Shown one piece after another: positions 7,077-59,976 of a stretch of 64,000 nt of DNA. A program made the translations under genes and the position numbers. The notes beneath the pieces were generated by a model. The model worked only from the letters and a program-made list of their open reading frames with translations, had not been told where the DNA came from and did not search any database. Location: positions 18,208-82,207 of IMG/VR virus record IMGVR_UViG_3300022916_000010. One strand, written 5' to 3'. Every line of letters starts with the position of its first letter. Position 1 is the first letter of the stretch. This stretch comes from a virus.

Positions 7077-8240
7077 ATGGAAAAAATAGAATATCACATA
7101 CATCCTGCTTTAACTCTTCCGTTCGATGACTTGTATAAAGGTCTTCAGGAAGAGGTAGAGGCTGGATACATCAACGTTCAAACTAAAGATGATTTAGAGC
7201 TTTTCAATTATAGTGCTACTGCTACTTATGATAAGCATTGGAACATTTTTACTCTTGTGGCCAGAGGTTTAATCCTTTGCCCTTCTCAAAAGAAGGTAGT
7301 CGCTGCTCCTTTTCCCAAGTTCTTCAATTATGGAGAGGTAGAAGAAGACCTACCTGATTTGGGTTTTTCTACTACTTTGAAGATGGATGGATCTTTAGGG
7401 ATCGTTTATTTTTGGAATGGAAAATGGAATGTAGCTACTCGTGGTTCTTTTGCTTCTGATCAAGCTGTTTGGGCTGAGAAGAATTTACAGAGCTACATGC
7501 TTGATTATATGCATGAGAATGCTACTTATTTAGTGGAAATAATCTATACTCAGAATCGCATTGTTGTAACTTATGATTTTGAGGGATTAGTTTTACTGGG
7601 GGGGTACTTTGTAGATACTGGTCATGAATTGCAAAGAGAGATATTGGAAGCCACCAGTAGAGAGACTGGAATGGGTTTGACTGAAACTGCTCATTTTGAT
7701 TCTTTGGATGATATGTTGGGAGTTTGCAAAACGTTGTCGTATAATGAAGAGGGTTTCGTTGTACGGTTTACTAATGGTTATCGTATCAAGATCAAGGGTG
7801 ATGAGTATTGCAGGTTGCATCGCTTAGTTTCTAATTGCACTCCATTGGTTATCTGGGACATGATGAGAAACTTAGATGATCTTGAAAATGCGAAAAAAGA
7901 TTTGCCAGAGGAATTTCGTAAAGATTTTGATGCTATAGAATCTATACTGAATGGGAAGCTGGACGATCTTTTAACTGAGGTAGAAGAGGTTTATCTATCT
8001 ACTAAAGAGTTGGGTGATAAAGAGTTAGGAATGTATTTGCAGAATCCAAACAATACTATCGACCCAAGGGTTAAAAGATTCGTTTTTCCCTGTAGAAAAC
8101 GAGATTTTTTAGAGACTATACGAACTGGGTCTAAGTCTAAACTTCGTAATAGTTTGTTCGAATTGTTTAGACCTACTGGCAATGTATTGGAAGGTTTTGA
8201 GCCTTCTACTGCTATGAATCGTTTTGAAGAAGAGAAGTAA
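7077..8240 (+). CDS. RNA ligase, T4 Rnl1-like
   Basis: 387 residues. The nucleotidyltransferase motif I is K-M-D-G-S-L-G with the AMP-accepting lysine at residue 102, preceded by the P-F-P-K-F-F-N-Y segment typical of T4 RNA ligase 1 (R-x-F-x-K-F-F-N). The later E-G-F-V-V-R and K-I-K motifs fit motifs IV and V. Rnl1 enzymes seal 5'-phosphate/3'-OH RNA ends, classically tRNAs cut in the anticodon loop by host nucleases. The length matches T4 Rnl1. The next gene overlaps by one base (TAATG). The odd tRNA genes in the window give this enzyme plausible substrates. Confidence 0.88.
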   Translation: MEKIEYHIHPALTLPFDDLYKGLQEEVEAGYINVQTKDDLELFNYSATATYDKHWNIFTLVARGLILCPSQKKVVAAPFPKFFNYGEVEEDLPDLGFSTTLKMDGSLGIVYFWNGKWNVATRGSFASDQAVWAEKNLQSYMLDYMHENATYLVEIIYTQNRIVVTYDFEGLVLLGGYFVDTGHELQREILEATSRETGMGLTETAHFDSLDDMLGVCKTLSYNEEGFVVRFTNGYRIKIKGDEYCRLHRLVSNCTPLVIWDMMRNLDDLENAKKDLPEEFRKDFDAIESILNGKLDDLLTEVEEVYLSTKELGDKELGMYLQNPNNTIDPRVKRFVFPCRKRDFLETIRTGSKSKLRNSLFELFRPTGNVLEGFEPSTAMNRFEEEK

Positions 8241-9088
8241 TGGAACTAGAAGACTTAAAGAATATTTTAGAACAGAATAGATACGTAGACCATCCTGATT
8301 TTGAGGATTCTACAATTTCTGAACGCATTGAGAACCAAGACCTTCCAGAGGATGTGGATGTATCTTGGTTTTTCAATTGTGATCTTCCTGTTAGAACGTC
8401 TAAAAATATTGTTGTATTAAGTCGGGAAGAAGAACGGAATGTATTTTTGCGTTATAATTTAGCGCGAAAAAGAATTTCTCAGGTAAAAGAGTCATATCCT
8501 GATGGACTCACGGATACAGCTAAACAAGAGATAATGCATTGGTATAAAGTTGTATTAGCAATGCAAAAGAAGTTAGTAGAATATAATCTAGCACTAGTCA
8601 TAAATACAACAAAGAGATTTTTGAAGAGTGGTTTAGATTATGAAGATATGGTATCTGTCGGTAATGAAGCATTACTGAGAGCTATTAAGACATTCGATAT
8701 TTCTAGAGGCAATAAGTTTTCGACTTATGCAACTTGGTCTATTATAAAAACTTTTGCCGGAGAAATTAAGAAGAAACAAGAGAGAGAAGAAAAGTTCCCT
8801 GTCTCTTATGACACTGAAGATGGAGAAGATGTAGAAGATCTATCCACCGATTATAGTAAGTTAATAGATGTTATTAGAACAGCATTAAAAGATAATTCTG
8901 CTGGACTAACTTACCAAGAAAGAGTCGCTGTTGAAATGAGATACTTTTTTGATGGAAAGAAACCCACTTATTCTGATGTTGGTAAAGAGCTTGGAGTAAG
9001 CAGGCCGTGGGCTAAACACCATGAGGAAAACGGTTTACGTAAATTGAAAAAATTCCTCGAAAAAACAGATTATTGTGTTGCATTTTAG
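8240..9088 (+). CDS. Sigma-70 family RNA polymerase sigma factor
   Basis: 282 residues. Region 2 is clear around residues 115-175: L-D-Y-E-D-M-V-S-V-G-N-E-A-L-L-R-A-I, then F-S-T-Y-A-T-W-S-I (the region 2.3-2.4 core). A region-4-like helix-turn-helix follows near the C-terminus (T-Y-S-D-V-G-K-E-L-G-V-S-R-P-W-A). It would redirect host core RNA polymerase to phage promoters. Region 1.1 is replaced by an acidic N-terminus. The gene is translationally coupled to the RNA ligase. Confidence 0.9.
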   Translation: MELEDLKNILEQNRYVDHPDFEDSTISERIENQDLPEDVDVSWFFNCDLPVRTSKNIVVLSREEERNVFLRYNLARKRISQVKESYPDGLTDTAKQEIMHWYKVVLAMQKKLVEYNLALVINTTKRFLKSGLDYEDMVSVGNEALLRAIKTFDISRGNKFSTYATWSIIKTFAGEIKKKQEREEKFPVSYDTEDGEDVEDLSTDYSKLIDVIRTALKDNSAGLTYQERVAVEMRYFFDGKKPTYSDVGKELGVSRPWAKHHEENGLRKLKKFLEKTDYCVAF

Positions 9089-17975: not shown

Positions 17976-18242
17976 ATGAAAATGACAAAAGATATTGAAG
18001 CTCTCTTGGATTATTGCCAAGATGACAGAGAATGGGAAAGCTTTTGGGAACAGATTTGCGATAATGGTTCTGACGCACTGACTAATGGAGAGAATCTTTA
18101 TTTTCAACGTCGTAAAAATCCCATTGACAATGAAGCAATACAAGAGTTGATGGAAAAGGCTGCAATGGACCCGAATCAAAATCACATATGGGCTATAGCT
18201 CATAGAATTAGAAAGGAATTGGAAAATGGATCAAACGACTAG
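17976..18242 (+). CDS. Hypothetical acidic helical protein
   Basis: 88 residues, mostly helical (W-E-S-F-W-E-Q-I-C near residue 25). The last 17 bases overlap the next gene. Not recognised. Confidence 0.7.
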   Translation: MKMTKDIEALLDYCQDDREWESFWEQICDNGSDALTNGENLYFQRRKNPIDNEAIQELMEKAAMDPNQNHIWAIAHRIRKELENGSND

Positions 18243-40500: not shown

Positions 40501-40704
40501 ATGAAATTCGACTTGACGGCCCCGGCCTGGATGTTTATCGCTTGGATTCTGTCGTTTGCTTACCTTCTGGTGACCAAGTTGGCAGGTGTCCATGCTTTCA
40601 CATGGTTTGTCGTTTTGTCGCCTCTGTGGGGCTTTGGTGGCCTTTTTATGGCTGTCGTAATCCTATTGTTTATGATTATTCTCTATAAGCTAGGCAATAG
40701 GTAA
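40501..40704 (+). CDS. Two-pass membrane protein
   Basis: 67 residues, two hydrophobic helices. AAAAGGAAATAAA upstream; starts two bases after the previous stop. Confidence 0.7.
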   Translation: MKFDLTAPAWMFIAWILSFAYLLVTKLAGVHAFTWFVVLSPLWGFGGLFMAVVILLFMIILYKLGNR

Positions 40705-40739
40705 CTTCCCTGAAAAGACGCGGAAAAAGGATAATCTGT

Positions 40740-41051
40740 ATGGATATGAAATACATTGTTGTTGAGTTGTTTACCGATCAATTCTCCGTTGTTGTCTTCT
40801 CGGCTGACTTAAACCATGCCGCAATGGTTCCTAGCAATTGGGACCAATCCCTAGTAAGATCGGCCGGCTTCTGTCGTATTATGGCCGGCGAGATAGACCC
40901 AACAGAAAAAGAATTAGAAAGAGGAATTATCGACCCCCAAATCAAGTTGGTTGTCTCTTGTTGGGGAAAGTCTGTATCTCTCAACAAAGAAAATCACGCC
41001 GATGATGAATCCCTGATCCTAAAAGAACTAAAGCGTTGGGATAGGTATTAA
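40740..41051 (+). CDS. Hypothetical protein
   Basis: 103 residues, mixed alpha/beta, Trp residues near 32 and 76. ATG at 40740 or 40746. Unknown. Confidence 0.65.
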   Translation: MDMKYIVVELFTDQFSVVVFSADLNHAAMVPSNWDQSLVRSAGFCRIMAGEIDPTEKELERGIIDPQIKLVVSCWGKSVSLNKENHADDESLILKELKRWDRY

Positions 41052-47535: not shown

Positions 47536-48408
47536 TTATTTATCCGACTCATCCGACTCATCCGACTCATCCGACATATTAAACATATTAGCTATTTCTA
47601 ATATTTTCTTAGCTACATGATCTTTATGAAATAAAGTACAATTAGAGCAGTCCCAAACTTTAGTTTGTGATTCATTTTTAATAAAGTGGCCTAGTTTATT
47701 ATTTTCGCAGGGATAGATAGGACAAAAGCAGAGCAGGCAGTTTTCCAATTCATTTTTTTCGTGGCAAGGATAATGTTTACAATTTTTATTAATCATTTTA
47801 TTCCTTTGCTTTTCTGTGCTTTTCTGTGCTTTCCATTGTATACAATATTGTTGTTCTATAGTTGGTCCTGTGGGATCATCTTCAGTTTTTCTGGTTGTAT
47901 TCCATTTATTACCGCAAGTCTGGCAATAGCGAGGACGATGTTTATTAAGTTTTCTATGTAGCCAATCGTGTCCTCCCCAACTATACAATTGAGCGAATTG
48001 ATTATTATGATGTATCCAACGACAATAGAATTCTCCCTTTAATCCTCTTAGGAAAGGAAGTACAACTCTATCTCTAATACATTTATATGTGGACTTATAA
48101 TATTTAAAATAGTTTATTATGTATGTAATTTGATTTTTGATTTTGATTTTAAGAGAACGTTCGGATGTACAGTTATCCCAAAAAGCTTTATTTTCATTTT
48201 CTTTTTGTTTAATATATTTTTTGGAGAAGTTTGGTGGTTCTTCGTGTTGTTTTTCGTAAGCATCATTACAATCTGGGCAGGGTTCACCGTTTATTTCGCC
48301 GGTTGATCCGCTACAGCAATTCATACCGCATGTCCCGCATCTAACGAAAGGATAATTACAATGGCCGCAATAATCCCAAGTATGTTCTTTTTTAGTATGT
48401 TTTGTCAT
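47536..48408 (-). CDS. Cys-rich protein with Cys-rich small domain at C-terminus
   Basis: 290 residues. The N-terminus has C-G-H-C, C-G-T-C-G, C-C and C-P-D-C. The C-terminal part H-Y-P-C-H, N-C-L-L-C-F-C-P-I-Y-P-C, D-C-S-N-C-T-L-F-H matches the 'cysteine-rich small domain' (zf-like) seen beside cobalamin genes in archaea and bacteria. A C-Q-T-C-G-N-K-W in the middle is another ribbon half. Last gene of the minus-strand island. Confidence 0.75.
   Translation of the reverse strand: MTKHTKKEHTWDYCGHCNYPFVRCGTCGMNCCSGSTGEINGEPCPDCNDAYEKQHEEPPNFSKKYIKQKENENKAFWDNCTSERSLKIKIKNQITYIINYFKYYKSTYKCIRDRVVLPFLRGLKGEFYCRWIHHNNQFAQLYSWGGHDWLHRKLNKHRPRYCQTCGNKWNTTRKTEDDPTGPTIEQQYCIQWKAQKSTEKQRNKMINKNCKHYPCHEKNELENCLLCFCPIYPCENNKLGHFIKNESQTKVWDCSNCTLFHKDHVAKKILEIANMFNMSDESDESDESDK
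47542..47575 (+). repeat. 9-bp tandem repeat in a gene end
   Basis: ATCCGACTC occurs three and a half times. On the minus strand it encodes the (S-D-E)n tail of the gene at 47536-48408. Confidence 0.85.
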
Positions 48409-50114: not shown

Positions 50115-51203
50115 ATGGATAAAGTTTCGTTATTAGATACATATTTAAAGAGTGCTGGTGTTAACAGTTCATTTGATCAGGTTGTTAATGCTGAGATGAT
50201 TCGTCAGAACATACCTTCGATATGGGATGAGACTCAGGGTGAGGGGATTAAGATAGCTGTATTGGATACTGGCTGTCAATATGATCATGTCGATCTACAG
50301 GGATCAATTGCATTTAAATTCAGCATGACTCAAGCTCGTAAAGCATACAGTTATTTAAGTTGGGCCAGATACTGGAAAAAGCAAGTTCGTTTATATCAAA
50401 AGAGGTTGAAGAGGACGAGAAATACTAAGAAACGAAACGGAATGAGGAAGAATTTAAAAAGTGCGCAAAAAAAAGTAACCTACTTTGTTCGTCGTTTTAA
50501 GGCTGCTCGTAGTAACGTATCTGACGCTCATGGTCATGGTTCTCATGTAACTGGTATTATAACTGCCAATAATAATGCTGAGGGTATTGTAGGTGTAGCT
50601 CCTAGAGCAAGAGTTCAGGTCATAAAGGTTTTAAATGATCAGGGTTATGGTTCTTATGATTGGGTTTCTGGTGGTATTGAGAAGGCGTTGAGTTTAGGTT
50701 GTGATATTATTAGTATGTCATTGGGCGGGACTTATGATCATCCTGGTATGCGTAAAATGGTAGATAAGGCATATGCTAGAAATGTTCCTATTATATGTGC
50801 TGCTGGTAATTCTGGGGATAAGGGCGTATTGGATTATCCTGGTAATTACAAAAAGACTATTGCTATTGGAGCATTAGATAAAAACAATTTACGTGCTGGT
50901 TTTAGTCAAACAGGCGAGAATTTAGATTTTATGGCACCTGGTGTTAACATTTTAAGTACTGTTCCTAAAGATAGTTATGCTGCATATAGTGGTACATCTA
51001 TGGCAACTCCCTGGGTAGCTGGTGTGGTTGCATTGATGTTAGCGAAGCATAGAAAGATTGGTGGTAAGACTCCTGTAGATACTGTTGCTCAGATCAAGGA
51101 TCATTTGAAGTGGGCTAGTATTGATTTAGACAAAGCTGGTAAAGACGAGAAGACTGGATATGGATTAATAGATGTAAAAAAAGCGATAAATGAATTAGTA
51201 TAA
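50115..51203 (+). CDS. Subtilisin-like (S8) serine protease
   Basis: 362 residues with an intact catalytic triad: Asp51 in A-V-L-D-T-G, His141 in H-G-H-G-S-H-V-T-G and Ser295 in S-G-T-S-M-A-T-P. The gap between Asp and His is about 50 residues longer than usual and highly basic (residues 75-132). No signal peptide, so it acts in the cytoplasm or virion. It directly precedes the W-Y-K-tagged gene cluster, which makes it a candidate processing protease. Confidence 0.9.
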   Translation: MDKVSLLDTYLKSAGVNSSFDQVVNAEMIRQNIPSIWDETQGEGIKIAVLDTGCQYDHVDLQGSIAFKFSMTQARKAYSYLSWARYWKKQVRLYQKRLKRTRNTKKRNGMRKNLKSAQKKVTYFVRRFKAARSNVSDAHGHGSHVTGIITANNNAEGIVGVAPRARVQVIKVLNDQGYGSYDWVSGGIEKALSLGCDIISMSLGGTYDHPGMRKMVDKAYARNVPIICAAGNSGDKGVLDYPGNYKKTIAIGALDKNNLRAGFSQTGENLDFMAPGVNILSTVPKDSYAAYSGTSMATPWVAGVVALMLAKHRKIGGKTPVDTVAQIKDHLKWASIDLDKAGKDEKTGYGLIDVKKAINELV

Positions 51204-51297
51204 TTTATATTGTTGTGCGAAAAAATTTATTTTGTATTAAAAATAATAATTTAAATGGCGCATTATTGTCTGTGAAAAATTTTTTGAGTGATAAGTA

Positions 51298-51669
51298 ATG
51301 AACTGGTATAGAGTTATAAAAATCGCATTGCCTATAACGGAGCGAAACAAACCGCAACATTATGTTAATATAGGTCATGGTCTGAATAAAAATAATGTAA
51401 CATTATGGTTAATAGATAAAAATTGGAATATAAAAACGGATACAGAAGCCCTTAATCATGTTAATATTTTTACAGAAGATGAGCTAGAAAACGGAATGGC
51501 TTATGGTAGATTTATGCAAAAAGAAAATGGAGAAAAAGTAGTAAGCGTTTATTGGTCCCATTTTATATTGCGAGAAACATCTCCACAACGATTAGAATTT
51601 ATTAAACAAAGAGTTGCGAAAATATTGGATCAGACATTTGATAACCCTGCAATATATGATTATGAATAA
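51298..51669 (+). CDS. W-Y-K family small protein, copy 1
   Basis: 123 residues, M-N-W-Y-R-V-I-K-I-A-L-P start. Family hallmarks: Y-x-N/D-I-G-H near residue 25, W-L-I-D-K-N-W, G-R-F mid-chain, and I-L-D-x-T-F-D-N-P-x-I-Y near the end. Function unknown. The stop overlaps the next ATG (TAATG). Confidence 0.85.
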   Translation: MNWYRVIKIALPITERNKPQHYVNIGHGLNKNNVTLWLIDKNWNIKTDTEALNHVNIFTEDELENGMAYGRFMQKENGEKVVSVYWSHFILRETSPQRLEFIKQRVAKILDQTFDNPAIYDYE

Positions 51670-52052
51670 TGAATTGGTATAAAGAAATAAAATTAGCATT
51701 GCCTGTTGTTGATACGCCTGGTTATATGCAATATTCAGACATAGGGCATACTGATAAAAAATTTAATCAACAAGAAATCATATGGATAGTAGACGAAAAT
51801 TGGAATTTCCAATCTTATCCTATAACTCCGGAAACGCAGAGAGATGCTCATTTTGATTTTTTTGGCAAAATGTATTATGATTCAATTGCTTCTGGTAGAT
51901 TTATATTAGATTTAGCTGGAAAAAAGAAAACTAGTCTTATTATAAATACATATCAAGGTGATTTACATCCTAGAAGATTAGAAAAGATTAAAGAAAAAGT
52001 ACATAAAATATTAGATATTCAATTTGATAATCCTGTTATATATGAGTTTTAA
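51669..52052 (+). CDS. W-Y-K family small protein, copy 2
   Basis: 127 residues, M-N-W-Y-K-E-I-K-L-A-L-P start, Y-S-D-I-G-H, W-I-V-D-E-N-W, S-G-R-F and N-P-V-I-Y-E-F end. Abuts copy 3. Confidence 0.85.
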   Translation: MNWYKEIKLALPVVDTPGYMQYSDIGHTDKKFNQQEIIWIVDENWNFQSYPITPETQRDAHFDFFGKMYYDSIASGRFILDLAGKKKTSLIINTYQGDLHPRRLEKIKEKVHKILDIQFDNPVIYEF

Positions 52053-52466
52053 ATGAATTGGTATAGAGTTATAAAATTAGCATTACCTGTAGTTAATGTT
52101 CCAAGAGAGATGGACTATACAGATATAGGTCATTATGACAAGATGGAACATTTTAGATTTGATAAAGTTGTTCAAGAGATTTTGTGGACAATAGATTATA
52201 ATTTTGATATTAAGACTATCCCCGTAACTGACATGAACATCGGAACGATTCATGACTACGCCTTTGATTTAGATTTTAGTTATAGATCAAAAGATTCTAT
52301 AGCATCAGGAAGATATATAAAACACAGAGATGGTTCAGGAAAAACTAGCGTAGCAATTAATGTAGATCCAGATACAACAAACCCTAGAAGGATGGAATAT
52401 ATTAAAAAACAAGTTTCTAATATATTAGATAGAGAATTCAATAACCCAGCAATATATGAGTTTTAA
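52053..52466 (+). CDS. W-Y-K family small protein, copy 3
   Basis: 137 residues, M-N-W-Y-R-V-I-K-L-A-L-P. Slightly longer between the I-G-H and W-T-I-D blocks. Ends N-P-A-I-Y-E-F. Confidence 0.85.
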   Translation: MNWYRVIKLALPVVNVPREMDYTDIGHYDKMEHFRFDKVVQEILWTIDYNFDIKTIPVTDMNIGTIHDYAFDLDFSYRSKDSIASGRYIKHRDGSGKTSVAINVDPDTTNPRRMEYIKKQVSNILDREFNNPAIYEF

Positions 52467-52934
52467 ATGAATTGGTATAAACAAATAAAATTAGCTCTTC
52501 CAGTTGATAAGACTATTCCATCAAGTCATTATATGGATTATGGTCATGAAGGATATTTTGAAATTGGAGATGTTGAAGGTATGATTTTTCATAAACTAGA
52601 GCCAGAAGCTCAAAAATCAGTCAAGAAAAAAATAGATAAAAATAAAGAAACTATATGGATAATGCAAAAAAATTATGAGATAATTGAGAATCCAGCGATA
52701 GGTGTTAATGATATAGGTATTATCAAAAGATATACTCATTGGGATGTCTGGGGGCTTCTAGATCAATCTATTTTAGCCAAAGGTAGATATGAAGGAGATA
52801 ACAATATAGTTTCTTTCGTATATACTTCTGCATTAAGAGGATATTCCATTAATAGAAGAAATCATGTTGAAAAAATGATGCTTAGATCTGTAGATAAACA
52901 TTTTAATAATCCTAAGATATCGGTATTTAATTAA
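52467..52934 (+). CDS. W-Y-K family small protein, copy 4
   Basis: 155 residues, M-N-W-Y-K-Q-I-K-L-A-L-P. Has about 30 extra residues after the G-H block (as do copies at 55451 and 55903) and A-K-G-R-Y. Confidence 0.85.
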   Translation: MNWYKQIKLALPVDKTIPSSHYMDYGHEGYFEIGDVEGMIFHKLEPEAQKSVKKKIDKNKETIWIMQKNYEIIENPAIGVNDIGIIKRYTHWDVWGLLDQSILAKGRYEGDNNIVSFVYTSALRGYSINRRNHVEKMMLRSVDKHFNNPKISVFN

Positions 52935-53722
52935 TGAATTGGTATAAAGAAATAAAAATAGCGTTACCTATAACGGAGAAAGATCCTCCTGTTCATTATA
53001 CAAATATTGGACATAGGATGCCGTCTAACTACAACAGTGTATTAAACAGAAGAAAAATTGTATACGCTGAAATATGGTATATCAATGATAAATGGGAATT
53101 TATTTCTGTTCCTGTAACAGATAGTAATACTCATGTATCTGAATTTCAAGCAGATGTTTTTTTGCATGGCATAGCAAGGGGAAGATATGATGAATCTTCT
53201 GATGGAGATAAATATGTAAGTGTTCTATTAGATTATGGAGTACAAGCTCATCATCCAGGCAGAGAAGAATATTTCATGAACAGAATCGAAAAGATTTTAG
53301 ATGAGAAGTATGGGAATCCAAATATTTATAGATATGCTAATAAAGAAATAAAGACTGCGTTGCCTGTAATGGAGAAAGACATTCATGGTCTTGACTATTT
53401 GGATATAGGTCACGAACATAGTTATAATCAAAGAGGAGAATCTCCAGTCAAATCTGAATTATGGTTAATAACTAAAAATTGGGAAATGTTAGCTATTCCT
53501 AGAAAGGGTGGCAACACTCATAATTCGATATTTGGTGATAAAGTATTTGATGCAATAGCAAAAGGAAGATTTGACGAGTTTGGTGATGGAGAAAAAAAGG
53601 CAAGCTTAATAATGGATTATACTCTAGGAGAAAATCCTAGAAGATTAGAACATATGACGAAAAGAGTAGAAAGCTTTCTAGATAACTATTACGGGAATCC
53701 GGATATATACAGGTGGAATTAA
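52934..53722 (+). CDS. Fused double copy of the W-Y-K family
   Basis: 262 residues: one complete unit (M-N-W-Y-K-E-I-K-I-A-L-P to I-Y-R-Y) joined in frame to a second that begins N-K-E-I-K-T-A-L-P, having lost its own M-N-W-Y and the intervening stop. Shows that the domain tolerates an internal, tag-less position. Confidence 0.85.
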   Translation: MNWYKEIKIALPITEKDPPVHYTNIGHRMPSNYNSVLNRRKIVYAEIWYINDKWEFISVPVTDSNTHVSEFQADVFLHGIARGRYDESSDGDKYVSVLLDYGVQAHHPGREEYFMNRIEKILDEKYGNPNIYRYANKEIKTALPVMEKDIHGLDYLDIGHEHSYNQRGESPVKSELWLITKNWEMLAIPRKGGNTHNSIFGDKVFDAIAKGRFDEFGDGEKKASLIMDYTLGENPRRLEHMTKRVESFLDNYYGNPDIYRWN

Positions 53723-54184
53723 ATGAATAATTGGTATAACAAAAACTTTTCAATTAAGGTCGCTTCTAACATATTAAAGGAAACGGACTTACGAGGAGAG
53801 ATAAAGCAGCAGGATGATGGTTTTTCTTACATAAAAGTAAATGACAAAATCGTTGAGGGGTTTTATCCAATGATTCCTGAAGCTTCTAAGCCTCCTTATT
53901 TTGGAGCAGATGGAATTGGAGCGCATGTTTCGTTTATATCTTCAGAAGAAGCAGAAGAAAAAGAATTGGCTGGAAAATTAAAAGAAGTTGGCAAAGAGAT
54001 TTGTTTTAAAGTAACTGGATTATATAGTACTAACCCTGCTGGTTGGGATGATATGAAAAGAGTTTGGTTTTTGACCATTGAGGCTCCTGAATTGAAGGAT
54101 ATAAGAAAGGGATATGGATTGCCAGCTAGTTACAATGGTAAAGGGCATAAATTCCATATAACTGTTGGAGTACAAAAATCATGA
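53723..54184 (+). CDS. W-Y-tagged 2H-phosphoesterase-like protein
   Basis: 153 residues, M-N-N-W-Y-N-K start. Two H-x-[ST] motifs (A-H-V-S-F near residue 75 and F-H-I-T-V near residue 147) fit the 2H phosphoesterase fold, which opens or closes 2',3'-cyclic RNA phosphates or related bonds. The body is unrelated to its small-protein neighbours. Confidence 0.7.
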   Translation: MNNWYNKNFSIKVASNILKETDLRGEIKQQDDGFSYIKVNDKIVEGFYPMIPEASKPPYFGADGIGAHVSFISSEEAEEKELAGKLKEVGKEICFKVTGLYSTNPAGWDDMKRVWFLTIEAPELKDIRKGYGLPASYNGKGHKFHITVGVQKS

Positions 54185-54702
54185 GTTGGTATAAAGTAGC
54201 TCAAAACGAATTTGATTATAAAAATGAATTAAGAGTTTTATGGAAAAGGTTGATCCATGAGGCAAAAGAGCAGAGTGGTATATATTTTGATTTGGAAAAT
54301 GACACTTCCAAAGGTAATATAAAAAGAATAAAATTAGACGCAAAAAATAATCTTGACAAAAATTATAGTATTTTAGCGGAAGCATTTGAAGCTGGTGGTG
54401 ATTGGCAAAATCCTGTATTGTATTTTCGTTGTCAAATAGCAGAAGATAGATATAAAAATGACAAATTTATTTTTATTCCTACATTGAAACAGGGAAATTC
54501 TAATTTAAAGAAATTTGAAAGAGGTTATTCTCCTACAGATAATTCTGAAACTGAGACAAAAAAAATTGATGAGAGAAAATGTTGGGATTCTTTAAAAGAA
54601 TATGCGGAAAAAAATATAAAAGAAATGAAACGGGACGAAAATGTACTGTTTAGTTTAACAGATTTATTTTTACCTAGGACAGAATGTGATATTAAGAAAT
54701 GA
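54181..54702 (+). CDS. W-Y-K-tagged hypothetical protein
   Basis: 173 residues starting M-S-W-Y-K-V-A-Q. Body helical and charged, not the small family. Overlaps both neighbours by four bases. Confidence 0.75.
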   Translation: MSWYKVAQNEFDYKNELRVLWKRLIHEAKEQSGIYFDLENDTSKGNIKRIKLDAKNNLDKNYSILAEAFEAGGDWQNPVLYFRCQIAEDRYKNDKFIFIPTLKQGNSNLKKFERGYSPTDNSETETKKIDERKCWDSLKEYAEKNIKEMKRDENVLFSLTDLFLPRTECDIKK

Positions 54703-55079
54703 ATTGGTATAAAACAATAAAAGTAGCTTTACCTATTATGGACGCTCCTGTTGGATCACATTATACCAGTGTCGGACATAATTTTGATAAGAGCAGGGAT
54801 ATTGAAGAAGAATTATGGATGATAGATAGACATTGGAAATTGCATACTGGAGTTCCTACTTACAAAAATCGTTTACATTATACTATGTTTTCTGCTACAG
54901 TCGCAAATGCTTATCTAGCAAAAGGCAGATATGAAGTAACACCTAATGGAGAAAAAAAAGTTAGTTTAACAATTAATGCCCCAGGTAGTTCAGAAATTGC
55001 AAAACAAGGGGCATTAAAAAATAAAGTTGTTAAAATATTAGATCAACATTATGGCAATCCCACAATATATGAGTTTTAA
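54699..55079 (+). CDS. W-Y-K family small protein, copy 6
   Basis: 126 residues, M-N-W-Y-K-T-I-K-V-A-L-P. The first 40 bases are almost identical to the next gene, so this duplication is recent. Confidence 0.85.
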   Translation: MNWYKTIKVALPIMDAPVGSHYTSVGHNFDKSRDIEEELWMIDRHWKLHTGVPTYKNRLHYTMFSATVANAYLAKGRYEVTPNGEKKVSLTINAPGSSEIAKQGALKNKVVKILDQHYGNPTIYEF

Positions 55080-55451
55080 ATGAATTGGTATAAAACAATA
55101 AAAGTAGCTTTACCTGTTATGAAACGTGATCAAGATTTAATATACACAGATATTGGTCACGATTGGGATCTCAACAGGTCCCAAAAAGAAGAATTATGGT
55201 TAATTGATAAAGATTGGAATTTTTTAACCGCTCCTGGTGGAAGGGAAGCAATACATGGTAGAAGTTTTCAAGGCAAATTACAAGGTCATTTGGCTGCGGG
55301 CAGATTCGTAATAGATAAATCCGGAAACAAGAAAGCTAGTTTACAAATTTCTTATGATGCTAAGACTCATCAAGTAGAATATATAATTAAACGAGCTTCT
55401 CAAATGTTAGATAAATATTATGATAATCCTGATATAGTGGTATTCAGATAA
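55080..55451 (+). CDS. W-Y-K family small protein, copy 7
   Basis: 123 residues, same start as copy 6. Y-T-D-I-G-H, W-L-I-D-K-D-W, A-G-R-F. Ends I-V-V-F-R. Confidence 0.85.
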   Translation: MNWYKTIKVALPVMKRDQDLIYTDIGHDWDLNRSQKEELWLIDKDWNFLTAPGGREAIHGRSFQGKLQGHLAAGRFVIDKSGNKKASLQISYDAKTHQVEYIIKRASQMLDKYYDNPDIVVFR

Positions 55452-55900
55452 TGAATTGGTATAAACAAATAAAATTAGCTGTTCCTATTACAGAAGCCCC
55501 TGGTAAGATGACTTATTTCGACGTTGGGCATAATGTAAACTTTTCTGCAAGAAAATATAATAATACGAATATAAATGAATATCCTGAAGAAGAGCAGAAA
55601 ATCATACGGGATTTTGAACATAAAGAAGCTTTATGGTATATCTTAAAAGATTTTAATTTTCTTTTAGTCCCTGCAATGGAAATAGCTGATAATGGCTTTA
55701 TTATGATAAATACGCATCGGGACTCGATAAATGGAAAAGATGTTTTAGCTCAGGGTAGATATGATAAAAATAAAAATGTAGTTTCATTTGTAGGATATTT
55801 CCCATCATCTGACAATCCTAAGAGACAAGAATATTCTAAAAAAAGGATTTATAGAATATTAGATCATATATTTAAAAATGCTCCTATATACGGATTTTAA
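55451..55900 (+). CDS. W-Y-K family small protein, copy 8
   Basis: 149 residues, long subtype with Y-F-D-V-G-H and an insertion before W-Y-I-L-K-D-F. Confidence 0.85.
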   Translation: MNWYKQIKLAVPITEAPGKMTYFDVGHNVNFSARKYNNTNINEYPEEEQKIIRDFEHKEALWYILKDFNFLLVPAMEIADNGFIMINTHRDSINGKDVLAQGRYDKNKNVVSFVGYFPSSDNPKRQEYSKKRIYRILDHIFKNAPIYGF

Positions 55901-55902
55901 TA

Positions 55903-56340
55903 ATGAATTGGTATAGACAAATAAAAATTGCTTTACCTGTAATGGATACTCCTACTGATGTAGGATATTTTGATGTAGGACATAGTAGTTTTTTTGATGC
56001 TAAAAATTACAGAAACAAAAAACTTTCTTCTCTGCCAAAAAATATACAAGAACAAATTTTAGAAAATATAGACAAAGATCAAATATGGTATATTTATTAT
56101 GATTTTTCTATAAAAGTTCTTCCAGCTTTAACAATAGATAGGTTTGGTAATGTTAGACTCAATTCTCATAGCGGGTATAACGCGATGGCAAAAGGAAGAT
56201 ATGATAAAGAAAAACATGCCGTTTCTTTAACAAATATGTCATATGATAAAAACCCTAAAAGACAAGAATATTTAAATAAAAAAATATATCAGATATTAGA
56301 TGATACTTTTGGGAATCCTGTTATATACGAGGATGATTAA
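55903..56340 (+). CDS. W-Y-K family small protein, copy 9
   Basis: 145 residues, long subtype like copy 8 (Y-F-D-V-G-H, W-Y-I-Y-Y-D-F). The stop overlaps the next ATG. Confidence 0.85.
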   Translation: MNWYRQIKIALPVMDTPTDVGYFDVGHSSFFDAKNYRNKKLSSLPKNIQEQILENIDKDQIWYIYYDFSIKVLPALTIDRFGNVRLNSHSGYNAMAKGRYDKEKHAVSLTNMSYDKNPKRQEYLNKKIYQILDDTFGNPVIYEDD

Positions 56341-57149
56341 TGAATTGGTATAAACAAATAAAATTAGCCGTTTCTGGAGAATATTGGATAGATGATTCTG
56401 GTAATGCATTATATGCTGATGGCGACGTAAGCGATTACAATCATGAGGCTTACGTCGCTGAACAGGTTATGGCTAAATATGACATTGATCCAAATGAAGT
56501 TGATTATATTTTAATGAGCGAAGAAGAACTCAAAGAAAGAGGAGTAACTGAAGAAGATATCAAACTCATTTTAGGGGAAGCGGATCTTAGGGAATATGCT
56601 ATGGTTCAGTGGGGATGGAAACGCCTAGAAGGCAATAATGTAGAAACAAATACTTTAACCTCTCAAGATTTAAGAAATATAGCAAATGGTTTATATGATG
56701 CCTTTAATGAAGAAGCAGAAAGAGACATGTTTAATATATATGTGATGAGTAATAATAAATGGTATGAGAATGTTCCATTTCACATTATAGAACAAGCCAA
56801 TCCGATGAAGATAAGAGGTTTTGCTATCGGACAAAAAGCCGAAAGATGGGCCTCTCAAGGACAATTCGGATTTGCCGAGCCTGTTAAATACGATTTTGAT
56901 AAACCAGTTCCTAATGTAAAACAGACTGAAGAAAAAATAGTGCCCGAAAAGAAAAAATCTCTTACTGTTATTGTTGATGGAGCCAACAGTTACGGAGAGA
57001 TGACTTTATACATCAATGGTAAACGATATAATTATAGATTACCTTGGAGTGCAAAAGATATTGGAAATAAAATAACTGACTTCAACCGTAAAGGTTGGGG
57101 AACTCAACTTAAAAGAATAATTGATAAAATAGATCCGTATATAATATGA
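56340..57149 (+). CDS. W-Y-K-tagged larger hypothetical protein
   Basis: 269 residues. The first ten (M-N-W-Y-K-Q-I-K-L-A) match the family tag exactly. The rest is unrelated: acidic helical N-half, Lys-rich linker near residue 205 and a C-terminal beta domain. A clear case of tag sharing without body homology. Confidence 0.8.
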   Translation: MNWYKQIKLAVSGEYWIDDSGNALYADGDVSDYNHEAYVAEQVMAKYDIDPNEVDYILMSEEELKERGVTEEDIKLILGEADLREYAMVQWGWKRLEGNNVETNTLTSQDLRNIANGLYDAFNEEAERDMFNIYVMSNNKWYENVPFHIIEQANPMKIRGFAIGQKAERWASQGQFGFAEPVKYDFDKPVPNVKQTEEKIVPEKKKSLTVIVDGANSYGEMTLYINGKRYNYRLPWSAKDIGNKITDFNRKGWGTQLKRIIDKIDPYII

Positions 57150-57847
57150 ACTGGTATAAGCAAGCACAAATTGAGCAAGCAGACTTAATCGCAGATTACG
57201 AATCTTATATTGAAGATAGTAATAGCGATGAAGAAGTTATAAATCTTATACAGAGATTAACTAAAGACTTCGAGATCATTGATTTCGATGGTGATAGAAT
57301 AATATCTGCCATTATTAATGGTACTCATGTGATAATTGAATTAGGTGGATATTATGAAGTTCAAGAGCCTGTAGACTGGATCCAGAATATAGCGAACAGC
57401 GGAAATGCTTATCGTTATGTAGACGAAAGAGATTTTAATAAAGAATTTTGGGATGACGTTTCTGATGGATTTATGTTATATCATGGAACTGGCGAAGAGA
57501 GGTTTGATGATATAATAAGAAATGGTCTTGAATCTAGAGATGAGACTAGAGGGATTTCTAACAGAGGAACTGGGTCTGCTGTGTTTACTTCTGATGACCC
57601 AGGAACCCCCAGGAACCATTATGATAAGGTGATTGAGATTAACGTCGGACAGATGAAAAGAGATGGTTACATGCCAACTGTGGGCAAAGAAGGGCCTTTA
57701 GAAGAGGCCGAATTGATAGAGACATTAGCTCATAAGATTGGTTTAGAGGATTTTTATTATGAAGTGGACAGTTCGGATGGATTAAGTCATGGTACAGTAA
57801 TATTTTATAATGACATTCCTGCTAGATATTTGAGGGAAGCAGAATGA
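57146..57847 (+). CDS. W-Y-K-tagged ADP-ribosyltransferase-like protein
   Basis: 233 residues, M-N-W-Y-K-Q-A-Q start. The C-terminal half has L-Y-H-G-T-G (His of an H-Y-E/ART fold), I-I-R-N-G-L, S-A-V-F-T-S-D-D-P and later E-A-E-L-I-E, as in PARP/TRPT1/DarT-like folds. Would modify a protein or nucleic acid using NAD+. T4 Alt, packaged and injected, is a functional parallel. Confidence 0.7.
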   Translation: MNWYKQAQIEQADLIADYESYIEDSNSDEEVINLIQRLTKDFEIIDFDGDRIISAIINGTHVIIELGGYYEVQEPVDWIQNIANSGNAYRYVDERDFNKEFWDDVSDGFMLYHGTGEERFDDIIRNGLESRDETRGISNRGTGSAVFTSDDPGTPRNHYDKVIEINVGQMKRDGYMPTVGKEGPLEEAELIETLAHKIGLEDFYYEVDSSDGLSHGTVIFYNDIPARYLREAE

Positions 57848-58227
57848 ACTGGTATAAAAAAATAAAAATAGCATTGCCTGTCGATACAAGATACGAACGA
57901 GGTCATCGTCGCCCTTCGTATTTAAGTGTAGGACATCAGGACAAACCTTTGGACCAGATATGGGCATTATTTAGTGATTATTATCTAGATGTTTATGATT
58001 TATATAATGAAGATGGTATTGTACTCACTCATGAAGATTTATGGCCAGATCGGTCTGATATGTTAGCGAGAGGAAGATATGAAGATTTTAATCATAGAAT
58101 AAGTTTAGTTTATGAACAAAAATATAGTATGGTTCGATTTCCTCCTAGAAGAGAAAAAATGAGAGAAAAAATTATATCTGTTTTGGATAAACAATTTAAT
58201 AATCCTACAATAATTGAGTATAGATAA
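57844..58227 (+). CDS. W-Y-K family small protein, copy 10
   Basis: 127 residues. Subtype with Y-L-S-V-G-H and D-L-W-P-D before A-R-G-R-Y, shared only with copy 11. Confidence 0.85.
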   Translation: MNWYKKIKIALPVDTRYERGHRRPSYLSVGHQDKPLDQIWALFSDYYLDVYDLYNEDGIVLTHEDLWPDRSDMLARGRYEDFNHRISLVYEQKYSMVRFPPRREKMREKIISVLDKQFNNPTIIEYR

Positions 58228-58601
58228 TGAACTGGTATAAACAAATAAAAATAGCCCTGCCTGTTGATGATTCTAGATATGAGAATCCTTTCTATTTAAG
58301 TGTAGGACATAAGGATGCTCCTGGCGATAAGATATGGGTTATGTATAAAGATTTTAGTTTAGATATAAAAGACTTATATAATGAAGAAGGTAAAACTTTG
58401 ACTCATTTGGACTTATGGCCAGACAAGAATGAAATGTTTGCTAGAGGCAGATATGAAGCTAAAAGGCATACAGCCAGTGTGGTATATTTTCCTGCGATAG
58501 TTTATGATGGCCCGATCAGCAGAATGGATTTTGCTAAAAAGAGGGTTATAAAAGAGTTAGATAGGGCATTTGGAAATCCTAGAATATTTGAGTATAATTA
58601 A
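58227..58601 (+). CDS. W-Y-K family small protein, copy 11
   Basis: 124 residues, close relative of copy 10 (Y-L-S-V-G-H, D-L-W-P-D-K, A-R-G-R-Y, F-G-N-P-R-I-F-E-Y). Confidence 0.85.
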   Translation: MNWYKQIKIALPVDDSRYENPFYLSVGHKDAPGDKIWVMYKDFSLDIKDLYNEEGKTLTHLDLWPDKNEMFARGRYEAKRHTASVVYFPAIVYDGPISRMDFAKKRVIKELDRAFGNPRIFEYN

Positions 58602-59221
58602 TGAATTGGTACAAAACATCAATGGGGCTATATGAGGATTTGGAGCATTATGGGCCTGGCGGTGAAGGTTATCTTGACGAATTACAAGATAAAAAGCATA
58701 AATCTTTGATGGATTGGTATAGAAGAGATAAATATATAAAAGATTATGGTTGGTCTGTTCCCAATAGAGAAGCCATATCAAAAATAAATGATTTTATTGC
58801 CGGCGAAAAAATATTAGAGATTGGTGCTGGTTATGGTTTATGGGCCAAGTTGCTACAGGATGAAGGAGCAGATATTGCCGCTACTGATGCACATTCAGAT
58901 TATTATGGAGAAAAATTTAATCCTTCTTCTAAGTCTTTTACTCATGTAGAGAGTTTAGATGCTTTAAAAGCTTTAGAGAAATATGGTGGTTATGGAGTTT
59001 TGATGACAGTTTGGCCTCCATATGCTGATTCAATGGCGAATGAAGCTATAAAGAATTTTAAAGGAAATAAGCTAGTTTATGTTGGAGAAGGAGGGTGGGG
59101 ATGCACTGGAGATGACGACCTTCATTGCACTCTTGAGAATGAATGGTCGCAAGTAGAACGTATTGATATACCTAAATGGGATGGAATACATGATGCGGTT
59201 TACTTATATATAAGAAATTAA
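58601..59221 (+). CDS. W-Y-K-tagged methyltransferase-like protein
   Basis: 206 residues, M-N-W-Y-K-T-S-M. SAM-binding motif I I-L-E-I-G-A-G-Y-G-L near residue 72 and A-T-D-A-H after it, with V-L-M-T-V-W-P-P-Y as a motif-IV-like segment. Class I methyltransferase fold; substrate unknown. Confidence 0.75.
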   Translation: MNWYKTSMGLYEDLEHYGPGGEGYLDELQDKKHKSLMDWYRRDKYIKDYGWSVPNREAISKINDFIAGEKILEIGAGYGLWAKLLQDEGADIAATDAHSDYYGEKFNPSSKSFTHVESLDALKALEKYGGYGVLMTVWPPYADSMANEAIKNFKGNKLVYVGEGGWGCTGDDDLHCTLENEWSQVERIDIPKWDGIHDAVYLYIRN

Positions 59222-59233
59222 TAGGAGCTTGTA

Positions 59234-59578
59234 ATGAAAAAAATAAAGACTGCATCTTTTAGCAAATTATCTTATGGTCAAACTTTTTCTGAGACATTAA
59301 ACATCAACGCTAATGATTTTATGTTTGAAGAAATGACTCATGAAGATTATATCGAAGTAGAGGTCAATGGAACTTTCAATCCTGGTTTCAAAGATACTTG
59401 GGAGAATCCTACTGAAACTGCCAATTATGAGATAGATAATATAATTTGGTTAAGAGCCTCTGATGGAGCTAGGCTAGATATAACTAATGAGATCATGGAA
59501 TATCCCGGCCTGTCCGAGAAATTAGTTGACCTGTTAGGTCGTGCTGGTGCTGGCGAAACTTTTGAATATAACGATTAA
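59234..59578 (+). CDS. Hypothetical protein at the end of the tagged cluster
   Basis: 114 residues, M-K-K-I-K-T-A-S start (no W-Y). Beta-rich middle, acidic C-terminus. AGGAGCTTGTA upstream. Unknown. Confidence 0.7.
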   Translation: MKKIKTASFSKLSYGQTFSETLNINANDFMFEEMTHEDYIEVEVNGTFNPGFKDTWENPTETANYEIDNIIWLRASDGARLDITNEIMEYPGLSEKLVDLLGRAGAGETFEYND

Positions 59579-59619
59579 ATAAAAAGAGATAACGCATTCT
59601 CACTATTGGAAAAATAAAT

Positions 59620-59976
59620 TTGAGAAAAATAATATCATGGTATAAAACGGCACAGGATGCTAATATCCCCTCAGCAGAAAAGTGGATAATATCAACAGCC
59701 AAGCGGATTATGGAATTGACAGATGCGTATGGTGATGCAAATACAAATAATGATTATCCAAAAGTATTAAAAGTAATGAATCAAATGCATTCATTAGCAA
59801 ATGTTTTAAAAGTGTATACATATAAATTAAGAGATGGCAATATCAAAAGCACAGGCTGCGATAAAGAAATAATTCAACATTCAATAAATTTTGTTAACTC
59901 TTTAGATGCAAGTGATATCCATCATATCAATAATAAATTATTGGGGCTAGTCGCCAATCTCTCAACATGTCTATAA
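59620..59976 (+). CDS. Tagged helical protein, TTG start
   Basis: 118 residues starting TTG. S-W-Y-K-T-A-Q-D at residues 6-13 repeats the tag. Body of long helices. The ribosome binding site is poor, so the start is uncertain. Confidence 0.65.
   Translation: MRKIISWYKTAQDANIPSAEKWIISTAKRIMELTDAYGDANTNNDYPKVLKVMNQMHSLANVLKVYTYKLRDGNIKSTGCDKEIIQHSINFVNSLDASDIHHINNKLLGLVANLSTCL

Follow-up and report, generated by a model that had tools for sequence, protein, structure and literature searches.

A short N-terminal tag shared by unrelated proteins of phage G-type phages: a candidate capsid-targeting signal

In phage T4 the internal proteins IPI-III and Alt carry an N-terminal capsid-targeting sequence (CTS) that is removed by the prohead protease gp21; ten residues are enough, with residues 4 and 7 important for targeting and residues 8 and 10 for processing (PMC9026906). 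In phage P1 a reporter enters the head when joined to the first 30 residues of DarB (PMC9024508), and in phages of the SPN3US/phiKZ type the propeptides of head and ejection proteins are cut by gp245, after Glu (PMC10052503). Here we describe an eight-residue linear protein motif, with consensus M-N-W-Y-K-x-[A/S/I]-[Q/K], that opens a long series of neighboring proteins in a 64,000-nucleotide stretch of viral DNA (IMG/VR record IMGVR_UViG_3300022916_000010, positions 18,208 to 82,207; hereafter the window), which is part of an 82,207-base IMG/VR viral fragment. This tag is real, modular, maintained at the protein level, predicted to lie outside the fold and confined to one head lineage, and head-module proteins have leaders in which its K-x-[AS] end is found again. 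By analogy with T4, we consider it probable that the tag is a capsid-targeting leader, unrelated in sequence to that of T4, which sends enzymes into the virion of large myophages of the phage G type.

The T4 CTS is similarly a run of about ten N-terminal residues, upstream of the fold and common to unrelated internal proteins; it too has an ADP-ribosyltransferase (ART) among its cargo, and a prohead protease is encoded by the tagged phages as well. The two differ in that the tag has no sequence similarity to the T4 CTS or to the gp21 site ([LI]-x-E), has no Glu in its consensus and no acidic residue at the putative cut site, belongs to a different head lineage and stands on the products of long arrays of candidate cargo genes. 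The signal of P1 DarB is also N-terminal and delivers a counter-defence protein to the head (PMC9024508), but it spans 30 residues and was shown for a single protein, with no short motif repeated on many bodies. The SPN3US/phiKZ-type phages resemble the tagged phages in their large size, their numerous internal proteins and their dedicated head protease, but most of their propeptides are 111–254 residues long and they have no short common tag.

The window contains 16 consecutive plus-strand open reading frames (ORFs) between positions 51298 and 59221, overlapping or abutting, and every one opens with the tag; the protein encoded at 59620–59976 also has it, after an extension. A preliminary description of this locus, which had noted at least 16 consecutive proteins with a W-Y-K start, is thus borne out. 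Thirteen of the 16 begin MNWYK or MNWYR followed by IKxA or xAQ, and the others begin MNWYKTS (58601), MSWYKVAQ (54181) and MNNWYNK (53723). One correction is that 11 of the 16 bodies belong to a single homologous small beta family. There are therefore six distinct bodies and not sixteen, namely the beta family, a 2H phosphoesterase, unknown proteins of 173 and 269 amino acids, an ART/PARP-like protein and a methyltransferase.

When 123 tags are aligned on the tryptophan, residues 1–8 carry 4.7, 3.2, 6.2, 4.2, 3.1, 0.7, 1.8 and 1.5 bits of information, and positions beyond residue 8 carry <0.4 bits. Among the 2063 predicted proteins of 16 contigs, the W of WYK lies at residue 3 in 89 proteins; past residue 15 it occurs 36 times in about 464,000 residues. 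Without the window and all genes picked up by the search patterns, there are still 48 residue-3 cases where 0.16 are expected, so the tag is not due to chance. Tagged genes are also neighbors of one another far more often than in shuffled orders (56 cases vs. 8.8). All eight synonymous AAY-TAY-AAR spellings occur, ATGAATTGGTATAAA being the commonest, and the exchanges that are tolerated (Y/F, K/R and N/S/T/D) are conservative, which together indicate that selection acts on the peptide. Scanning 2.9 million viral contigs for such patterns yielded further tagged contigs. The pattern MNWYKxAQ has four matches in 85,000 bacterial and archaeal genomes, with no tagged start among them, and thus no host can be inferred. 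No mention of the tag was found in the literature searched, and it is a genuine, widespread and apparently undescribed N-terminal element. Three matches to MNWYKKIKK (L013, L016 and L019) represent a single protein that has a T4-like core-type motif; they were excluded as evidence.

The tag is not tied to any type of protein. The 93 tagged proteins scanned match 36 Pfam families, with domains that include GNAT, PolyA_pol with HD, AAA_33, a cyclic-phosphate receiver, LysM, G6PD, ART-PolyVal, 2H, PcfJ, sigma-70 region 4 and the anti-Thoeris Tad6 (4.5e-35), and one further tagged protein has a DnaJ domain. P-loop kinases are tagged in contigs G003, G008 and G012 and untagged in G004 and G007; the CCA-adding enzyme is tagged in G011, G014 and G015 and untagged in G003 and G022. 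Homologs in annotated phages align only from residue 21 (Tad6), 27 (the window methyltransferase) and 13 (G6PDH). In an AlphaFold model of the beta family, residues 1–6 have pLDDT <50 and the blocks of the body have 74–94, and yet the disordered residues of the tag rank among the most conserved columns of the family alignment; the tag is thus predicted to be disordered and to stand ahead of the folded body. The 36 Pfam families and the disordered tag in the model speak against a common fold for all tagged proteins; the preliminary description had named such a fold as fatal to its view of the tag as a kind of address label kept on unrelated bodies. That view is supported by the modularity of the tag, seen in the six bodies of the window and the Pfam families elsewhere. 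A Tad6-type Thoeris inhibitor has MNWYKQAQ ahead of its domain (L092:555-980; G015 40555–40980). There is, in addition, a second shared start, MxYK[IL]SKxxWxxIGxxAGWxKxA, on short proteins that lie among the MNWYK genes in G004, G007, G010 and G014, and it also finishes W-x-K-x-A (loci L141-L148, L155-L157 and L123-L130).

Nor is the tag local to the window, as arrays of unrelated tagged proteins are present on related IMG/VR contigs. These tagged contigs are large uncultured myophages of the phage G type. PHROG scans of them detected a terminase, a portal and a major head protein (phrog_2522), as well as a protein of about 2000 residues that contains a head maturation protease domain; the giant head protein of G012 (80430–86426, with the protease domain in its N-terminal part) matches the prohead protease phrog_18299 (1e-9) and has orthologs in other tagged contigs. 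Among annotated relatives of the tagged-contig head protein, the best is Bacillus phage G gp27 (55% identity). A member of phrog_2522, the family of the phage G major head protein, is encoded by 14 of 23 tagged contigs vs. none of three untagged contigs that encode an S8 protease (below), and relatives of the phage G-type head protein are rare, being found in only 216 of 50,697 annotated phage records. To avoid circularity, contigs were also collected by their head protein alone. MxWYK starts were found in 21 of these 50 (18 of the 47 not seen before), with 44 matches to the pattern vs. five to its reverse. Among contigs collected by a T4-type head, in comparison, the tag is in none of 30 (about 3.6 Mb; Fisher p 3e-5 against 18 of 47), and the T4 gp21 and gp23 families were not found in the tagged contigs. 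Neither phrog_2522 nor a prohead protease was seen in the window's own 82-kb fragment; the tagged orthologs it shares with the other contigs suggest that it may belong to the same head lineage.

Several features connect the tag with the head module. In seven contigs with a head gene the nearest tagged gene is 1.6–10.1 kb away, closer than under rotation (p 0.013). Families of head-module orthologs retain K-x-[AS] in otherwise divergent N-terminal leaders. One such set reads LKKQS/YKKAS/IKKAN/LKKHA/LKKHA, a second KKFSQNS/KKQSQSS/QKYSQSL/KKHAQSL and a third VKTAS/TKTAS/VKTAS/VKTAS/VKTAQ, while a fourth has IKTAQ/VKKAQ/IKTAQ and ITEAQ ahead of a conserved Q-G-Y-W-I-R-N; the leaders of the protease-bearing giants contain VIKLA, FMKKA, IDKKA, FYKTA, IYKFA and LYKHA. 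Of 157 head-module proteins, 19 have the longer motif K-x-[AS]-Q within 50 residues of the start, vs. five of 354 others (p 7e-7), and within one small family the tag and a K-x-A leader replace each other (MTWYKKCK in G025, MKIIKTAK in G012). Across 80 head loci there is a clear excess just for K-x-[AS] in residues 1–10, at 24 per 1000 vs. roughly 6–16, or about twofold. In two contigs (G009 and G019; L196 and L212) we also observe a tagged gene, MNWYKKAQFLNDG..., that starts about 120–140 bases beyond the end of the major head gene and on the same strand.

Bacillus phage G (Donellivirus gee) offers a parallel. It has the same type of major head protein as the tagged phages and, like them, a common N-terminal tag on head-module and ART-like proteins, but the tag differs: MxWYK is absent from the phage G genome, and about 20 unrelated proteins open instead with MKRLIKK[AS] or a close variant (L165, L169-L186). 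[KR]RL stands at residue 2 in 13 phage G proteins; its frequency elsewhere predicts well under one such case. Among the carriers are the head-module proteins gp13 and gp17; gp10 and gp20 fit less strictly. Four others (gp53, gp141 and those encoded at 178671–179219 and 245985–246467) have an HGTS or HHTS of the ART/KptA type after the tag and are, by this motif, ART-like. Together, the restriction to one head lineage, the K-x-[AS] leaders of head-module proteins and the phage G parallel indirectly support a link between tag and head.

If the tag is a capsid-targeting leader, it would bring its protein into the virion, most likely the prohead, where its aromatic and basic part would bind the core; the phage's own head maturation protease would then cut at or near K-x-[AS], and the cargo enzymes would enter the host by ejection together with the DNA. 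We infer all three steps (entry into the capsid, cutting and ejection). Certain observations weigh against this interpretation. MxWYK is lacking in 29 of the 47 phage G-type contigs, and the window's contig is a fragment in which no head or structural genes were recognized among the larger proteins scanned. K-x-[AS]-Q is weak across the broad sample of 80 head loci and was rejected as a general rule; in head-module proteins it is enriched past residue 50 as well, so composition explains part of that signal. Finally, cargo such as G6PDH and CCA polymerase are not obvious early effectors.

A broader proposal, on which we are evenly divided, is that in phage G-type giants a short code at the N-terminus, which one branch writes as MNWYKxAQ and phage G as MKRLIKK[AS], serves as a general head import and processing signal for a large and fast-changing set of injected enzymes and anti-defence proteins, independent in sequence of T4. 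The proteins carried in giant phage particles are mostly unknown and have so far not been readable from sequence; if the proposal is true, the injected set could be read straight from the genome, and an eight-residue tag would allow candidate injected proteins of uncultured phages to be listed. It would also suggest a role for many unknown genes, that of acting right after infection (Tad6 and the ARTs, for example), and would provide a handle for packaging foreign proteins in phages. Phage G is cultured, so the idea can be tested now.

The tag could have other meanings. Aromatic and basic residues suit membrane interfaces, and a Trp-Tyr-Lys anchor might be an interfacial membrane or replication-compartment address within the infected cell and no virion signal at all, which would go well with the metabolic and nucleic-acid enzymes among the cargo. 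We think this rather unlikely, given that the tag is confined to one head lineage, that its leader motif is common to head-module proteins and that phage G has head-module tags. We are more skeptical that the destination is elsewhere in the particle, for instance the tail or baseplate, or its outer surface: two tagged proteins have LysM, which phage tail and lysis proteins are known to contain, and in G018 and G025 the tagged arrays are followed by very long structural-like genes, but the motif is common to head-core proteins and not to the tail genes that were read. That a nucleotide-level element (for ribosome binding, regulation or recombination) incidentally encodes MNWYK is hardly credible. 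The genes do overlap and have a start sequence in common, with one spelling predominant, but the use of all eight spellings and the conservative protein variants speak against it, and the upstream bases have no common element beyond that of homologous neighbors.

The preliminary description had further proposed that the gene beside the array encodes a subtilisin dedicated to removal of the tag during loading. The gene (50115–51203, plus strand) does encode an S8 subtilisin-like protease without a signal peptide (PF00082, 1.8e-57), its Asp/His/Ser set is intact (DTG 51, HGSH 141 and GTSMA 293), and the basic insertion is a Lys/Arg-rich stretch with 21 such residues among the 60 at 77–136. S8 genes directly adjoin a tagged gene in G000, G007, G010 and G015, so they share an accessory locus. 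This neighborhood and the intact catalytic residues favor the proposal, but linkage does not hold across genomes: PF00082 is present in only eight of 22 tagged contigs, many of them fragments, with weak phmmer matches in two more. The three best relatives (45–47%) are on contigs without the tag, two of which are T4-like with gp21 and gp23; the S8 proteins of G007 and G010 open with a hydrophobic signal-like sequence and are therefore of a different kind; and where tagged contigs include a head module, they have a head maturation protease domain of their own. An S8-based system is thus not borne out, and we regard a dedicated tag-removing subtilisin as very improbable. The S8 protein is unlikely to be the maturation protease and is perhaps an accessory gene or cargo. 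The preferred reading remains a capsid-targeting leader, probably processed by the head protease.

All genes of the array lie on the plus strand. It begins with four beta-family proteins at 51298–51669 (MNWYRVIKIA), 51669–52052 (MNWYKEIKLA), 52053–52466 (MNWYRVIKLA) and 52467–52934 (MNWYKQIKLA), assigned from the ORF list and the family alignment, as are the others of the family. The family's invariants are M1, N2, W3, Y4, I7, K8 and A10, then G-H ... W ... A-x-G-R ... N. At 52934–53722 is a tagged tandem fusion of two beta-family units, the second of which retains KEIKTALPV without NWY, a loss that would fit an internal copy that no longer needs the tag. The tagged 2H phosphoesterase follows at 53723–54184 (MNNWYNKNFSIKVA; Pfam 2H-SAK, 6.4e-11; orthologs in G012 and G018), and then the 173-amino acid protein at 54181–54702, which had no family match in profile searches. 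Four more beta-family proteins lie at 54699–55079 (MNWYKTIKVA; the one whose structure was predicted), 55080–55451 (MNWYKTIKVA), 55451–55900 (MNWYKQIKLA) and 55903–56340 (MNWYRQIKIA). The 269-amino acid unknown at 56340–57149 (MNWYKQIKLA) has tagged relatives in G018 and G012. The tagged ART-like protein at 57146–57847 (MNWYKQAQ) has a YHGT motif and matches PARP weakly (0.0016) and RNA 2'-phosphotransferase at 0.018; its G011 ortholog opens MDWYKSAQ, and its predicted structure, from an alignment of two sequences, has a pLDDT of 39. The last two beta-family proteins are at 57844–58227 (MNWYKKIKIA) and 58227–58601 (MNWYKQIKIA), and the methyltransferase at 58601–59221 (phrog_19090, 2e-34) has tagged orthologs in G015 and G010. 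No relatives of the beta family were found in annotated phages; its matches to gelsolin/ADF-like folds are weak (TM about 0.4), and we do not claim such a fold. Beyond the 16, the ORF list includes a protein with a K-T-A leader at 59234–59578, whose start, MKKIKTASF, lacks W-Y-K and is possibly a variant tag (compare the orthologs MTWYKKCK and MKIIKTAK above), and the TTG-start protein at 59620–59976, in which the tag stands behind a short extension (MRKIISWYKTAQ, including SWYKTAQ).

Other features of the same contig lie apart from the array. Upstream of the window an RNA ligase (phrog_24030) is split over two ORFs, and HNH and homing endonuclease sequences lie inside these ORFs and in the interval separating them (L009:628-3124), an arrangement that suggests an intron or intein, and a member of the phrog_850 'RNA-binding protein' family is encoded at L009:5679-7349. 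Within the window are a sigma-factor-like protein (phrog_351) at 8240–9088 and, on the minus strand at 47536–48408, a Cys/His-rich protein of 290 amino acids with DESDESDESDK repeats at its end.

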